From Lutibacter sp. HS1-25 (GTDB lineage: Bacteria > Bacteroidota > Bacteroidia > Flavobacteriales > Flavobacteriaceae), in assembly GCF_004121075.1 (NCBI RefSeq), contig NZ_RHLN01000016.1, positions 1 through 64,000 on the forward strand: 64,000 nt of DNA. The letters run 5' to 3'. Positions 584 through 5,305 of the stretch are shown here, one piece after another. How positions within the stretch are numbered: position 1 is the first letter of the stretch; each line of letters opens with the position of its first letter. The position numbers were made by a program, and so were the translations under genes. The notes below the pieces were generated by a model that was given only the letters and a program-made list of their open reading frames with translations, had not been told where the DNA came from and searched no databases.

Positions 584-1144
584 TTATTGGGTTAATACTG
601 TAAATTTTCCTGCTTCAACTTTAGGAAAATCAATTTCAGTTTCTGCAATATGGTTTACATAATTTGTTAATGTATTTGATACCACATTTAATACTATTTC
701 AAGAATATCTTCATCAGTATACCCCGCTAATTTAGCTGCTTCAATTTCTTCAGAAGTTATTTTTCCTCGATTTTTTGTGATAGATTGCGCAAGTTTTAAT
801 CCAACTTCAATTTTTACATCAGTAGCTATTCCTTGTCGGCTTTGTTCTGTTTGCTCATCACTTAAACCATTCATTTTTCCAATTGTAGTATGTGCCGATA
901 AGCAATAATTACAATTATTTTCTTCTGCTATCGCAAGTGCAAGTTGCTCTCTAAACTTATTGCTAAAGTTTCCGCTAGCAGTTAATTCGCCTAACTGTAG
1001 GTACGATTTTAAAGTAGCGGGTGAGTTTCCAAACACTTTTATTAAATTAGGAATAAAACCTAATTTTTTTTGAACTCCGTTAAATAATTCTTTTGATTCG
1101 CCTGTTGTTGTTTCAGGATTTAATGTTTCAATTCTAGTACTCAT
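584..1144 (-). CDS. Carboxymuconolactone decarboxylase / AhpD-like family protein
   Basis: A 186-residue cytoplasmic all-helical protein of the AhpD/CMD superfamily, whose members act as thiol peroxidases or reductase partners. The diagnostic redox motif is C78-N-Y-C81 followed by H85 (CNYCLSAH), matching the AhpD core CxxC-x3-H. The N-terminal half carries the family's FIPNLIKVFGNSP segment. The gene is the last of a minus-strand group: a 31-residue CPNCWG microprotein ends 19 bases upstream and thioredoxin lies just beyond. Function in organic-peroxide or disulfide reduction is inferred from the motif and from the thioredoxin neighbour; substrate is unknown. CMD proteins with CxxC are rarely true decarboxylases. 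Confidence 0.85.
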   Translation of the reverse strand: MSTRIETLNPETTTGESKELFNGVQKKLGFIPNLIKVFGNSPATLKSYLQLGELTASGNFSNKFREQLALAIAEENNCNYCLSAHTTIGKMNGLSDEQTEQSRQGIATDVKIEVGLKLAQSITKNRGKITSEEIEAAKLAGYTDEDILEIVLNVVSNTLTNYVNHIAETEIDFPKVEAGKFTVLTQ

Positions 1145-1163: not shown

Positions 1164-1259
1164 TTATTGTTTATTTTCGGTTATGTTTATTTGTTGGTTT
1201 TCTTCATATTCTTGAAAACCCCAGCAATTTGGACAATTTGTTTTTTGATTTGTTTTCAC
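1164..1259 (-). CDS. 31-residue CPNCWG microprotein
   Basis: A short frame with a GTG start at 1259 and a TAA stop ending at 1164; an in-frame stop lies three codons upstream, so no longer start is possible. The product begins MKTNQKTNCPNCWGFQEYEE and ends in a polar tail. The CPNCWG motif is a zinc-knuckle or redox CxxC. It sits 19 bases before the AhpD-like gene and downstream of a promoter-like -7 box at 1285-1292, so it is probably the first gene of a two-gene transcript. From memory, similar short CPNCWG proteins occur in other flavobacteria, but I could not check this. Function unknown; a small redox or metal-binding partner of the two neighbouring CxxC proteins is my inference. Confidence 0.6.
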   Translation of the reverse strand: MKTNQKTNCPNCWGFQEYEENQQINITENKQ

Positions 1260-1343: not shown

Positions 1344-1673
1344 TTAGTTTTTTGAAGATTCAATTAATTTATTTAATTGATTTTTTAACTCATTTTCAGG
1401 AGCAGCTCCTGTTGATCTTCCTACAGTTTTACCTTCTGAAATGTAAATAAGCGTTGGAATACTTCTAACTTGAAAAGCAGCAGCCAAATCCTTATTGTTA
1501 TCTATATTTACTTTTTTTATAGCTACTTTATCAGCATATTCTTCAGCTAATTTCTGAATTGTTGGACTCAAGGTTTTACACGGTCCACACCAATCTGCGT
1601 AAAAATCTAGTAATACTAATTTGTTATCTGTTATTACTTTTTTGTATTGATTTTGATTTATTTGAATATCCAT
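1344..1673 (-). CDS. trxA: Thioredoxin
   Basis: A 109-residue protein of ordinary thioredoxin length with no signal peptide, so cytoplasmic. The active site is W28-C29-G-P-C32 and the cis-proline is in SIPTL (P73). It reduces protein disulfides using electrons from thioredoxin reductase, which is not encoded in this window. Its neighbours, a CPNCWG microprotein, an AhpD-like CxxC protein and an AraC-type regulator, suggest a stress-induced redox locus rather than the general housekeeping thioredoxin; that is inference. The start follows a promoter-like CATATTTG box at 1698-1705. Confidence 0.92.
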   Translation of the reverse strand: MDIQINQNQYKKVITDNKLVLLDFYADWCGPCKTLSPTIQKLAEEYADKVAIKKVNIDNNKDLAAAFQVRSIPTLIYISEGKTVGRSTGAAPENELKNQLNKLIESSKN

Positions 1674-1785: not shown

Positions 1786-2634
1786 TTAGCTATTAATATG
1801 GTCAGCCTTAAATTGTAGTGGTGATTTTTTAACCGCTTTTGTAAAAAACCGACTAAAATATGCCGGGTCCTCAAAACCTAAATTAAAAGCAATTTGTTTT
1901 ACAGATTCATTAGTGTAAATTAATTGACGTTTAGCATCAAGAATAATTCTGTTTTTTATAAAATCACTTGGTTTTTCGGCATTAATTTTTTGAAAATGTT
2001 TAGCTAAAGATTTAGGAGACAATCCTAATCTATTCGCATAATCGGTTACGGAATGTAGTTTTCTGAAATTTTGCGCTACCAAAAGGCTAAAATCTTTAAA
2101 TAGGGCAGATTCAATATCATCTTTAATTGGTTCAATCTCTTTTTTTATTCTTACTGAATGTATGATGAATTGTTTTAAATACGCTTGAAGCATATCATAT
2201 TGTGCAGTATCTTTATTGTTAAACTCTTCAATTAAACTCGTTAAAATAAATTCTAACTTTTGTTCGTCTGATTTGGAAGTTTTAACAAAAGGAGTTTCAT
2301 ATATATTGTTAAATAATACACCGTTACAAGCAATTTCTTTATCGTGCGTTTCAATGCAATAAAAATCTCTTTTAAAAGTAAGCTTATATGCTTCTTTTAT
2401 TTTTTCTGAATCAACAGAAAATAGCTGCCCAGGCGAAAGAAAAAATAAAACACTTCCATCAAATGAATAACTTTTAAAATCAATATTATAATTTCCTTTA
2501 CCTTCCTTAATCCAAAAAATACTATAGTTATCTACTTGCTCGTTTTTATTTACAACGCAAGCATTTTCAAATGAAATTTTGTTAAGTGAAAAAATGTTTT
2601 TAAATGAGTATGTTGAAGTATTTTGAATTGCCAT
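1786..2634 (-). CDS. AraC-family transcriptional regulator
   Basis: I place the start at the ATG at 2634 (MAIQNTSTYSF), giving 282 residues. A longer in-frame start at 2718 would place the terminator of the upstream gene inside the coding region. The N-terminal ~150 residues resemble the cupin-like AraC_binding sensor domain (WIKEGKGNYNIDF, LFFLSPGQLF). The last ~100 residues form the double helix-turn-helix of HTH_18: first HTH around YANRLGLSPKSLAKHF, second around VKQIAFNLGFEDPAYFSRFF, ending KKSPLQFK. It lies directly upstream of thioredoxin on the same strand, and the shared GACAAAAGTTC motif suggests that it controls the redox genes. Its ligand is unknown. Confidence 0.88.
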   Translation of the reverse strand: MAIQNTSTYSFKNIFSLNKISFENACVVNKNEQVDNYSIFWIKEGKGNYNIDFKSYSFDGSVLFFLSPGQLFSVDSEKIKEAYKLTFKRDFYCIETHDKEIACNGVLFNNIYETPFVKTSKSDEQKLEFILTSLIEEFNNKDTAQYDMLQAYLKQFIIHSVRIKKEIEPIKDDIESALFKDFSLLVAQNFRKLHSVTDYANRLGLSPKSLAKHFQKINAEKPSDFIKNRIILDAKRQLIYTNESVKQIAFNLGFEDPAYFSRFFTKAVKKSPLQFKADHINS

Positions 2635-2745: not shown

Positions 2746-3216
2746 TTATACTTTGTTGTTTTTTTGTTTGCCACCTTTTACACCCTTTTGGTTATTTTTA
2801 GCCATATTTTTTTTACCAGACTTTCTTTGATGTTGCATCATTTTTTCCCATTTTTCATATTGATCTTTTGTCAATATATTTTTCATTGCTGTTTTATGTT
2901 CAATTTTTTTGTCTAAACGTTGTTTTTGCATTTCATATTTTTCATCGTCAGAAATGGTAACACCATCTTGTCTTTTTTGCTTCATAGAAGCCATTACACT
3001 TTGTTGTTCAGTAGCGCTATTTTTCATTAAATTGTAAACTTCGGTTTGCTGTTTTGTATTTAAATCCAATGCTAAAGTCATTTGCTTTGCTTTTAAAGTC
3101 GCTTTTTGTTCAGGAGTAAGATTCATTCCTTTTTGACCTTTTCCTTGACCTTGTTGTGCATTAACAGCTATTGATGTAAGTAATGCGATTACAAAAATTC
3201 CAATTATTTTTTTCAT
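2746..3216 (-). CDS. Spy/CpxP-like periplasmic protein
   Basis: A 156-residue basic protein with a clear signal peptide (MKKIIGIFVIALLTSIAVNA, cleavage before QQGQ). After it come two LTxxQ-type motifs, LTPEQKATLKAKQ and LTKDQYEKWEKM, in a long helical stretch; this is the pattern of Spy/CpxP envelope-stress chaperones and their Bacteroidetes relatives. The C-terminus is a lysine/glycine/asparagine-rich tail. Such proteins bind unfolded clients or metal ions in the periplasm; the client here is unknown. It is a single gene with a strong terminator. Three GTTAAC-like repeats in 10-bp phase lie upstream and could bind a response regulator. Confidence 0.75.
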   Translation of the reverse strand: MKKIIGIFVIALLTSIAVNAQQGQGKGQKGMNLTPEQKATLKAKQMTLALDLNTKQQTEVYNLMKNSATEQQSVMASMKQKRQDGVTISDDEKYEMQKQRLDKKIEHKTAMKNILTKDQYEKWEKMMQHQRKSGKKNMAKNNQKGVKGGKQKNNKV

Positions 3217-3367: not shown

Positions 3368-5305
3368 ATGATGCATAAACTTTCAGATTGGTTACCTACT
3401 ACAAATAAAGAGGTAAAGCTTAGAGGTTGGGAAGAATTAGATGTAATTCTTTTTAGCGGAGATGCCTATGTAGACCATCCAGCTTTTGGACATGCTGTGG
3501 TTGGACGTATTTTAGAAAGTTACGGTTTAAGAGTCGCTATTGTGCCTCAGCCAAGTGTGAACGATAATTTACAGGATTTTACAAAACTTGGAACTCCAAA
3601 AATGTTTTTTGCAGTTACAGGTGGTTGTATGGATCCAATGGTAAGTAATTATACTGCCAGTAAAAGAAAAAGAGATACTGATGCATATACACCAAATGGT
3701 GATAAGGGTTTTAGACCAGATTATGCAACAACGGTTTATACCAATATTTTAAAAGAAAAATTTCCAGATGTTCCTGTTTTAATAGGTGGAATTGAAGCTT
3801 CATTAAGAAGGGTTACACATTATGATTATTGGAGTGATACTTTAAAACCAACCATTTTAAAAGATGCTAAAGCCGATTTATTGGTTTATGGAATGGGAGA
3901 GCAACCCTTAAGAGAAATTGTAAGTTTATTACAAAAAGGGGTGCCATTTTCAAGTTTAACCACTGTAAAACAAACAGGTTTTTTATTGAAAAAAGGTACT
4001 GAAATTCCGAAAAATAAAAATTGGAAAGATGTTGTTATCAATTCGCATGAGGTTTGTTTAAAAGATAAAAAATTATTTGCATCTAACTTCAAAGTAATTG
4101 AACAAGAGTCAAATAAATTGTTTGCAGATCGTATTTTACAAGATGTAGGAGATACCACTTTGGTTATTAATCCGCCTTATGAAACAATGACAGAAGCTGA
4201 GATTGACGCCTCTTTTGATTTGCCTTTTACACGTTTACCACATCCAAAATATAACAAGCGAGGACCAATTCCTGCGTTTGAAATGATTAAATTTTCTATA
4301 AACATTCACCGAGGTTGTTTTGGCGGTTGTAGTTTTTGTACCATTTCAGCACATCAAGGTAAATTTATAGCCAGTCGTAGTCAAGAATCTATTTTAAAAG
4401 AAGTAGATAAGGTGGCAAATATGGAAGATTTTAAAGGTTACTTATCTGATATTGGAGGACCATCGGCAAATATGTACAAAATGAAAGGTAAAGTACAGGA
4501 AATATGTGACAGATGTGTGTCGCCTTCGTGTATTTCTCCAGTTATTTGCCATAATTTAGACACTTCACACAAACCATTAACAGAGCTTTATAAAGCTGTT
4601 GATAGGCATCCTAAAATAAAAAAATCGTTTATTGGAAGTGGTATTCGCCATGATATGTTGGTGCCAGAATTTAATGTAAAAGCCGATCCAAAAGAATTGG
4701 ACGCTTATACTGAAGAAGTAATGACCAATCATGTGTCAGGTCGTTTAAAAGTAGCACCAGAGCATACTTCAGACAATGTTTTGAAGTTAATGCGTAAACC
4801 TTCTTTTAAATATTTTCACCAGTTTAAAGAACGTTTTGATAAAATAAACAATCGTAAAAAATTAAATCTTCAATTAATTCCGTATTTTATTTCAAATCAC
4901 CCAGCTTGTGAAGTTGAAGATATGGCCAATTTAGCAGCCGAAACCAAAGATATGGGCTTTCAGTTAGAGCAGGTACAAGGTTTTACACCAACACCAATGA
5001 CAGTTGCTACGGTAATTTATTATAGTGGTTACCATCCGTATACTTTAAAACCTACCAGAACGCCAAAAACTAAAAAGGAAAAAGATGATCAGCATCGTTT
5101 TTTCTTTTGGTACAAGAAAGAAAATCAACAGTGGATTAAAAATACTTTAACCAATGTTGGTAGAAGTGACTTGCTTCAAAAACTGCTTCCAACAAATAAT
5201 TCGTGGCGTAAAAACAAAGGAGAAAAACCTAAAGATACGTTTGACGAAACTGTTACATTTTCTTCAAGAAAAAAGAAAAAATTCAACAACAAGAAAAAAA
5301 GATAA
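3368..5305 (+). CDS. YgiQ family radical SAM protein
   Basis: A 645-residue protein counted from the ATG at 3368; a second ATG follows at once at 3371. The radical-SAM cluster motif is present as C317-x3-C321-x2-C324 in HRGCFGGCSFC. Other family hallmarks are the N-terminal LPTTNKEV and ILFSGDAYVDHPAFG segments, GGIEASLRR, RPSFKYF-type text near the end and a lysine-rich tail. The family is widespread (E. coli YgiQ), binds a 4Fe-4S cluster and S-adenosylmethionine, and its reaction remains unestablished to my knowledge. It stands alone on the plus strand after a -7 box; the MscS gene follows 73 bases later. Confidence 0.93.
   Translation: MMHKLSDWLPTTNKEVKLRGWEELDVILFSGDAYVDHPAFGHAVVGRILESYGLRVAIVPQPSVNDNLQDFTKLGTPKMFFAVTGGCMDPMVSNYTASKRKRDTDAYTPNGDKGFRPDYATTVYTNILKEKFPDVPVLIGGIEASLRRVTHYDYWSDTLKPTILKDAKADLLVYGMGEQPLREIVSLLQKGVPFSSLTTVKQTGFLLKKGTEIPKNKNWKDVVINSHEVCLKDKKLFASNFKVIEQESNKLFADRILQDVGDTTLVINPPYETMTEAEIDASFDLPFTRLPHPKYNKRGPIPAFEMIKFSINIHRGCFGGCSFCTISAHQGKFIASRSQESILKEVDKVANMEDFKGYLSDIGGPSANMYKMKGKVQEICDRCVSPSCISPVICHNLDTSHKPLTELYKAVDRHPKIKKSFIGSGIRHDMLVPEFNVKADPKELDAYTEEVMTNHVSGRLKVAPEHTSDNVLKLMRKPSFKYFHQFKERFDKINNRKKLNLQLIPYFISNHPACEVEDMANLAAETKDMGFQLEQVQGFTPTPMTVATVIYYSGYHPYTLKPTRTPKTKKEKDDQHRFFFWYKKENQQWIKNTLTNVGRSDLLQKLLPTNNSWRKNKGEKPKDTFDETVTFSSRKKKKFNNKKKR

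Follow-up and report, generated by a model that had tools for sequence, protein, structure and literature searches.

In Pseudomonas aeruginosa, the AraC regulator RclR and the neighbouring AhpD-like protein RclX are needed against HOCl and HOSCN, according to the available part of the report (PMC7950407). In the same part, rclX is a single-gene operon, and nothing is said of a microprotein or of a thioredoxin or cupredoxin-like partner. The available text of a review also states that HOCl in biofilms induces carboxymuconolactone decarboxylase and OsmC-like genes (PMC7464077). One-domain zinc-finger micro-proteins, shorter than 70 aa and with C(P)xCG-type Cys pairs, are described in Haloferax volcanii, where 12 out of 16 deletion mutants showed a conditional phenotype (PMC6562870).

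Our analysis covered a 64,000-nt stretch of Lutibacter sp. HS1-25 (the window), in which an AraC-type gene (1786–2634), a thioredoxin gene (1344–1673), a CPNCWG microprotein gene (1164–1259) and an AhpD-like gene (584–1144) are located in this order, all on the minus strand. RclR-RclX shows the same pairing: an AraC-family gene with a neighbour from the carboxymuconolactone decarboxylase family that encodes an AhpD-like CxxC protein. The gene arrangement recurs in most of the relatives described below. An AraC-type gene was present upstream of the microprotein in 72 of 80 loci, and the AhpD-like gene directly follows the microprotein in 74 of 79 short loci (a fusion at L052 counted). The likeness is one of gene arrangement. 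Functionally, the operon would resemble a type already described, the AraC-AhpD response to oxidants, and includes components that are new; its description as a thiol-redox locus is supported.

The CPNCWG motif forms residues 9–14 of an open, GTG-started 31-codon frame (1164–1259, minus strand), of which the genome of HS1-25 carries one copy. GTG is the only start codon of this frame and occupies the same place as the ATG of its relatives. An in-frame ATG was found 2–9 codons ahead of CPNC in all 79 short relatives, and exactly 8 codons ahead in 61 of them. With the nearest ATG taken as the start, all 80 short copies are 26–38 aa in length, that is, a single domain of less than 70 aa. A search against 299 genomes of the family gave matches at E ≤ 1 for 96 of them, and many of these matches were weak. 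We examined 30 loci from this search and left out the weaker matches. Of these, 17 (the own genome included) contained the short form and 12 a longer relative, one of which was truncated by a contig end; the other one (L023) was excluded because of a stop. A profile scan of a public genome collection gave 120 stretches with the pattern. Among them 111 were confirmed and 80 were kept, namely 79 short loci and one long locus (L088). The short CPNCWG proteins that the original prediction expected in other flavobacteria were thus found in both searches. In the phylum search, the short profile matched 10 of 395 genomes at E ≤ 0.01, several of them weakly, and the long profile matched 6 of 395 at E ≤ 1e-5. 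Two genomes from this search, G383 and G597, have AraC, AhpD and cupredoxin genes in the order seen elsewhere, with the operator present.

Codon and cysteine statistics were calculated on 80 short microproteins, i.e. the 79 short copies plus the window. The scan had been seeded with CPNCWG[YF]Q, and the invariance of those eight residues across the 80 loci is therefore built in. Over ten core codons, the mean entropy was 0.93 bits at position 3, and 0.11 and 0.18 bits at positions 1 and 2. The tyrosine at +9, which lies outside the seed, was kept in 80 of 80. In 174 close pairs, pN/pS was 0.18 over 17 codons, 0.35 for the nine codons left without the seed, and 0.08 for the four codons after the seed. 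When all 3156 pairs were taken, the values were 0.53 for the nine unseeded codons and 0.18 for the four after the seed. In two shifted and two antisense frames pN was greater than pS, and the third antisense frame left just 14 stop-free pairs. These results indicated that ORF 1164–1259 is a genuine gene under purifying selection at the protein level. The conserved small protein read from this frame in the original prediction, and the dominance of synonymous change by which it was to be recognised, are both borne out.

None of the forms searched (the short form, a double-CxxC form and two long forms) matched a Pfam or NCBIfam family above cut-off. The top Pfam match of the window microprotein was zf-RING_10, which scored 18.6 bits (cut-off 31), and that of the double-CxxC variant reached 18.2 bits (cut-off 25.2). 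The microprotein represents a small-protein family outside Pfam and NCBIfam coverage. In the PDB, no solved relative of the short form was found at E ≤ 1, while the long form gave four weak matches (E 0.28–0.52). The AlphaFold model of the microprotein, with a pLDDT of 62, was too weak for use. A plasmid origin was also considered, and tblastn of the 31 residues against PLSDB gave no match. Our literature search among open-licence papers found no paper on the CPNCWG motif, the family or the operator string, and none that pairs such a microprotein with an enzyme of the AhpD type; it likewise gave no data on expression of the operon, on zinc or on oxidants.

The AhpD-like protein (186 aa; 584–1144, minus strand) contains the motif CNYCLSAH, and its gene starts 19 nt past the microprotein stop. 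In the relatives, the microprotein mostly lies 9–126 nt ahead of the next gene. The protein matches PF02627 (2.7e-9, 37.3 bits versus a cut-off of 23) and TIGR00778 above cut-off, has relatives among solved AhpD structures (6e8l and 3lvy), and shows CxxCxxxH in 69 of 69 aligned rows, all of which are shared with the AhpD/carboxymuconolactone decarboxylase family. It differs from that family in falling below the cut-offs of TIGR01926 and TIGR00777. In the majority of Polaribacter loci, and at a small number of other loci, the AhpD-like protein belongs to a distant subfamily, with 34–42% identity versus 74–85% elsewhere.

The thioredoxin (109 aa; 1344–1673, minus strand) carries WCGPC and matches PF00085 at 1e-30 and TIGR01068 above cut-off. 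It was found in just 17 of the 80 loci and is an optional member of the group. The conserved position that the original prediction proposed next to AhpD or thioredoxin genes accordingly holds for the former and not for the latter, and a relay of three thiol proteins is not the common design. Its three CxxC proteins within ~1.1 kb are all real, but the motifs themselves (CGPC at 1589–1578, CPNC at 1235–1224 and CNYC at 913–902) span about 0.7 kb. At L052, a natural thioredoxin-AhpD fusion was found in one open frame (4127–5005, plus strand) with the microprotein gene ahead of it, and this fusion ties the two enzymes together.

The AraC-family regulator (1786–2634, minus strand) matches PF12833. 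In its sensor half, C93, H97 and C103 were found in 67 of 67 aligned rows and C26 in 66 of 67, with residues numbered from the Met at 2632–2634. Eight loci were without the AraC gene: L042, L049 and L102 are truncated by a contig end, L088 is the long form, and L056, L064, L086 and L098 had no AraC relative within the sequence examined.

A secreted cupredoxin-like gene (~124 aa, PF13473 above cut-off) was found in 74 of 80 loci, L036 (4738–5112) among them, and the Cys of its product lies in the motif YFCPLNxTPxY. The six other loci include the long form (L088) and two, L095 and L098, whose sequence stops at the AhpD position or shortly past it. Cupredoxins with a type-1 copper site use two His, one Cys and usually a Met as ligands. 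Our alignment showed one His in 75 of 75 rows and one Cys in 74 of 75, and the second His and the Met are missing, so despite the PF13473 match this protein lacks the type-1 ligand set. No match to it was found in the own genome, while five out of five operator-bearing control genomes were matched. The edge of the contig holds the C-terminal part of a DDE transposase (PF13751; 93–467, plus strand), in convergent orientation to ahpD and roughly in the place that the cupredoxin-like gene takes in relatives. Genes for an MbnP-family protein and a MauG-type cytochrome c peroxidase were identified in five of 80 loci (L037, L047, L060, L067 and L081), all titled Polaribacter, downstream and on the other (minus) strand. 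MbnP is copper-linked. These genes and the cupredoxin-like gene are a hint of copper. The unit that most loci share thus consists of AraC, the microprotein, the AhpD-like protein and the cupredoxin-like protein, and thioredoxin is not a regular neighbour.

A putative operator of ~30 bp was identified upstream of the gene, whose consensus sequence is (T/A)GTCCAA-N5-A(G/A)GAAC(T/C)TTTGTCCATTTTT. AraC-type operators are direct repeats whose half-sites are separated by two helical turns, and they precede the core promoter. The predicted site has this layout, as its half-sites GTCCAA and GTCCAT are spaced by 21 bp and it stands ahead of a −7-like box, which we take to be of the Bacteroidota type. 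Its core was found within 700 nt upstream in 79 of 80 loci, with L088 as the sole exception, and in 90 of 91 sites the distance between operator and −7 box was one and the same. The window contains two such sites on the minus strand. The one ahead of the thioredoxin gene, AGTCCAACTAGTAAGAACTTTTGTCCAT (1728–1755), has the full consensus, and the −7-like box of the thioredoxin promoter is GCATATTTG (1698–1706). The one ahead of the microprotein-ahpD pair, TATCAAACTATAAGGAACTTTTGTCTAT (1315–1342), is degenerate in its distal half-site and has GTCTA instead of GTCCA in the proximal one; the −7-like box of this promoter, GCAACTTTG (1285–1293), is of the kind that follows the operator in the relatives. 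A site ahead of the thioredoxin gene was also found in 13 of the 17 thioredoxin loci.

When no more than one mismatch was allowed, the 26-nt operator was found in 23 of the 299 genomes of the family, compared with 2 for the reversed control. Two of the 25 operator sites were discarded as chance. One, in G156, had a one-mismatch operator but no operon gene; the other, C19 of the own genome, is the third exact match to the 14-mer there and had no operon gene within the stretch examined, and is not claimed as a regulon site. The other two exact matches are the sites of the window. With one mismatch, the 14-mer gave 17 matches in the own genome versus 21 for the reversed control. In the window alone, a two-mismatch pattern gave 8 matches against 6.9 expected, of which only the two sites above were exact.

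Among the 22 remaining operator genomes, 17 had the microprotein and five (G002, G091, G180, G288 and G294) did not. Conversely, the operator was present in 17 of 17 genomes with an inspected short microprotein, the own genome being counted via its thioredoxin site. In the five genomes without the microprotein, an AraC gene lay beside the site in all five, a cupredoxin-like gene was found in four and an AhpD-like gene in three. The regulator-operator pair is the constant element, and the microprotein is a frequent, dispensable member. The data establish the gene and the purifying selection on it, its clustering with the neighbours, and a conserved site that is tied to the AraC gene. In G091 and G294 (L152 and L153), the slot of the microprotein between the operator and an AhpD-like gene is taken by a 48-aa frame, which has two cysteines and no resemblance to CPNCWG.

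The core of the short microprotein is CPNCWG(Y/F)QxY. Four cysteines were found in 52 of the 80 short copies, three in 19 and two in 9, the last including the window. The tail carries CxC in 51 of 80, giving a CxxC+CxC layout, one Cys in 20 (one copy counted here has two, in an arrangement other than CxC) and none in 9, the window among them. In the orthologues of L018 and L019, which occupy the same slot, a CPKC or CSKC pair ahead of CPNC replaces the tail pair. Placing the CxC label on a tree built from 67 AraC proteins requires 14 changes, at least five of which are forced by well supported branches. These changes, together with the 2- and 3-Cys copies, indicate that a fixed Zn(Cys)4 site cannot be general. 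Zinc-finger micro-proteins of the C(P)xCG type have two Cys pairs, i.e. four ligands. The four-Cys relatives would satisfy this description, and judging from their residues the chances that they bind zinc are even. The window copy has just two Cys, so that a four-thiolate zinc site cannot be built from its own residues, and we do not class it with these micro-proteins. Compared with what is available on the Haloferax micro-proteins (PMC6562870), the flavobacterial form is similar in length and in its Cys pairs, but it differs in having CPNCWG plus an often-lost CxC tail and a recurring operon partner; the two are likened by layout only.

Longer relatives of ~90 aa with CPxCWG were found in about 29 of the 299 genomes of the family; the search gave 32 matches at E ≤ 1e-6, among which the last three in strength are short or doubtful frames. 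They are Flavobacteriaceae proteins, sharing the core CPNCWGxQEY with the short form, and the comparison of the two profiles gave E 3.9e-15 over 19 columns. They differ from the short form in length, in a second CxxC (CPxC+CxxC) that is invariant in all 14 aligned, and in the operator core, which was found in 0 of 44 long-form loci (several covering the same place). This absence places the long form outside the AraC regulon. By simple motifs, with no background model and with the long gene itself overlooked in 9 of the 31 loci scored, the neighbours of the long relatives included MsrA in 3, MsrB in 2, AhpD in 2, AraC in 2 and TrxR in 1. Two further MsrA neighbours, recognised on inspection, were verified with Pfam over the first 90 residues of each, giving 5 of 31. 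OsmC, FMN reductase, and AhpD-like plus SnoaL-like genes were seen next to some long relatives, and many neighbours were unrelated. The redox-gene surroundings of the long form are suggestive only. In L180 (1501–2283, plus strand), a CPICWG domain is fused in frame to a hemerythrin HHE domain.

From its sequence and company, the microprotein is probably a small zinc- or thiol-binding helper in oxidant defence. We give marginally better than even chances to the more specific proposal that it is a zinc-knuckle accessory of an AraC/AhpD oxidant-response regulon like RclR-RclX. The AraC regulator would bind the predicted direct-repeat operator and activate the operon; a role as activator fits the position of the operator just upstream of the −7 box. 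The regulon would consist of the microprotein, the AhpD-like peroxidase and the secreted cupredoxin-like protein, joined by thioredoxin in some species. C93, H97 and C103 of the sensor half, with the near-invariant C26, could sense thiol oxidants or metal, and by analogy with RclR-RclX the inducer may be a thiol-directed oxidant or electrophile. AhpD would clear the oxidant and then regain electrons from a thioredoxin. The microprotein, as a zinc-knuckle made of CPxCWG and a second Cys pair, might dock on a partner such as AhpD; alternatively, it might release zinc upon oxidation of its thiolates. The window copy, without a second Cys pair, would have to dimerise, borrow ligands of its partner, or be degenerate. 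The operator, the regulator and the 31-residue product offer a testable handle on the flavobacterial response to thiol-directed oxidants. Many flavobacteria are marine, and algae release reactive halogens nearby.

The zinc-knuckle reading is weakened by the 2- and 3-Cys copies and by the lack of a solved relative or a Pfam zinc family, as well as by the five operator genomes without the microprotein, the long form without an operator, and the copper hints. A dithiol carrier, in which disulfide/dithiol cycling of CPNC would move electrons from thioredoxin to the AhpD-like enzyme, agrees with AhpD-like neighbours in 74 of 79 loci and thioredoxin in 17 of 80, and with CPNC as the sole pair kept while the tail cysteines vary, though CPNC lay in the search seed. 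However, 63 of 80 loci have no thioredoxin, L052 fuses thioredoxin straight to AhpD and leaves the microprotein outside, and three of the five operator genomes without the microprotein still have the AhpD-like gene. The second CxxC of the 14 aligned long relatives is invariant, and in the available part of PMC6562870 C(P)xCG pairs are common in C4 zinc fingers. We consider this carrier unlikely. Of the two roles that the original prediction offered, the zinc adaptor would fit the Cys layouts of the relatives better than the redox carrier. Quite unlikely, too, is a Cys-rich metal peptide, for copper as the main alternative or for zinc, paired with the secreted cupredoxin-like protein in a metal-handling operon. 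Its CxxC plus CxC would suit soft metals, and the cupredoxin-like gene occurs no less regularly than AhpD, persists in four of the five operator genomes without the microprotein, and is accompanied in five loci by MbnP-family and MauG-type genes downstream. Yet two ligands of a type-1 site, the second His and the Met, are missing from that protein, the MbnP genes are confined to those five of 80 loci, and Msr, OsmC and AhpD genes adjoin some long relatives.

The remaining explanations concern the gene itself. It is doubtful, though a serious alternative and one compatible with the zinc-knuckle reading, that the family is functional elsewhere and the window gene is a degenerate copy being lost. 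The window gene has no ATG start and no tail cysteine, the distal half-site of its operator is degenerate, the cupredoxin-like gene was not found in the own genome, a transposase fragment comes right after ahpD, and neither operator nor microprotein was found in two other genomes of the genus. But its frame is intact with the core CPNCWGFQEY unchanged, the AhpD and AraC frames are intact, and the promoter box is in place. A role as leader peptide or 5′ UTR element, acting on ahpD translation and giving no functional product, is disfavoured and very improbable. The gene is short, usually first in the transcript and close to the next gene, but selection acts on the amino acids, and the motif recurs within ~90-aa proteins and in the hemerythrin fusion. 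Its position also varies: it is found before the cupredoxin-like gene (L037 and L070), before the thioredoxin-AhpD fusion (L052) and immediately after thioredoxin (L096 and L109). The short length and non-ATG start might even have suggested a chance ORF, but this is refuted by conservation, that is, by the 111 confirmed relatives, the shared gene order, the third-position bias of the variation and pN/pS.

Going beyond the zinc-knuckle reading of the short form, the CPNCWG proteins might together be an undescribed Bacteroidota family of oxidant-response zinc-thiolate microproteins. The short form would act on an AhpD-type partner under the AraC operator, the long and fused forms, outside the operator, would serve Msr, OsmC or hemerythrin, and oxidation of the thiolates would activate or protect the partner. 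We put this forward tentatively, as a generalisation with rather less than even chances.

Several further genes were observed around the operon and its operator. Upstream of the AraC gene in the window lies a gene for a secreted LTXXQ/heavy-metal-resistance-like protein (2746–3216, minus strand; Pfam match below cut-off). A SnoaL-like gene was seen in 9 of 80 loci, also with a Pfam match below cut-off, and the MbnP/MauG set includes a third gene with no Pfam match. In G288, an operator site stands ahead of an isochorismatase-family gene. In G059 (L161), a second operator was found before a DoxX-family gene on the minus strand, near 1000–1520.
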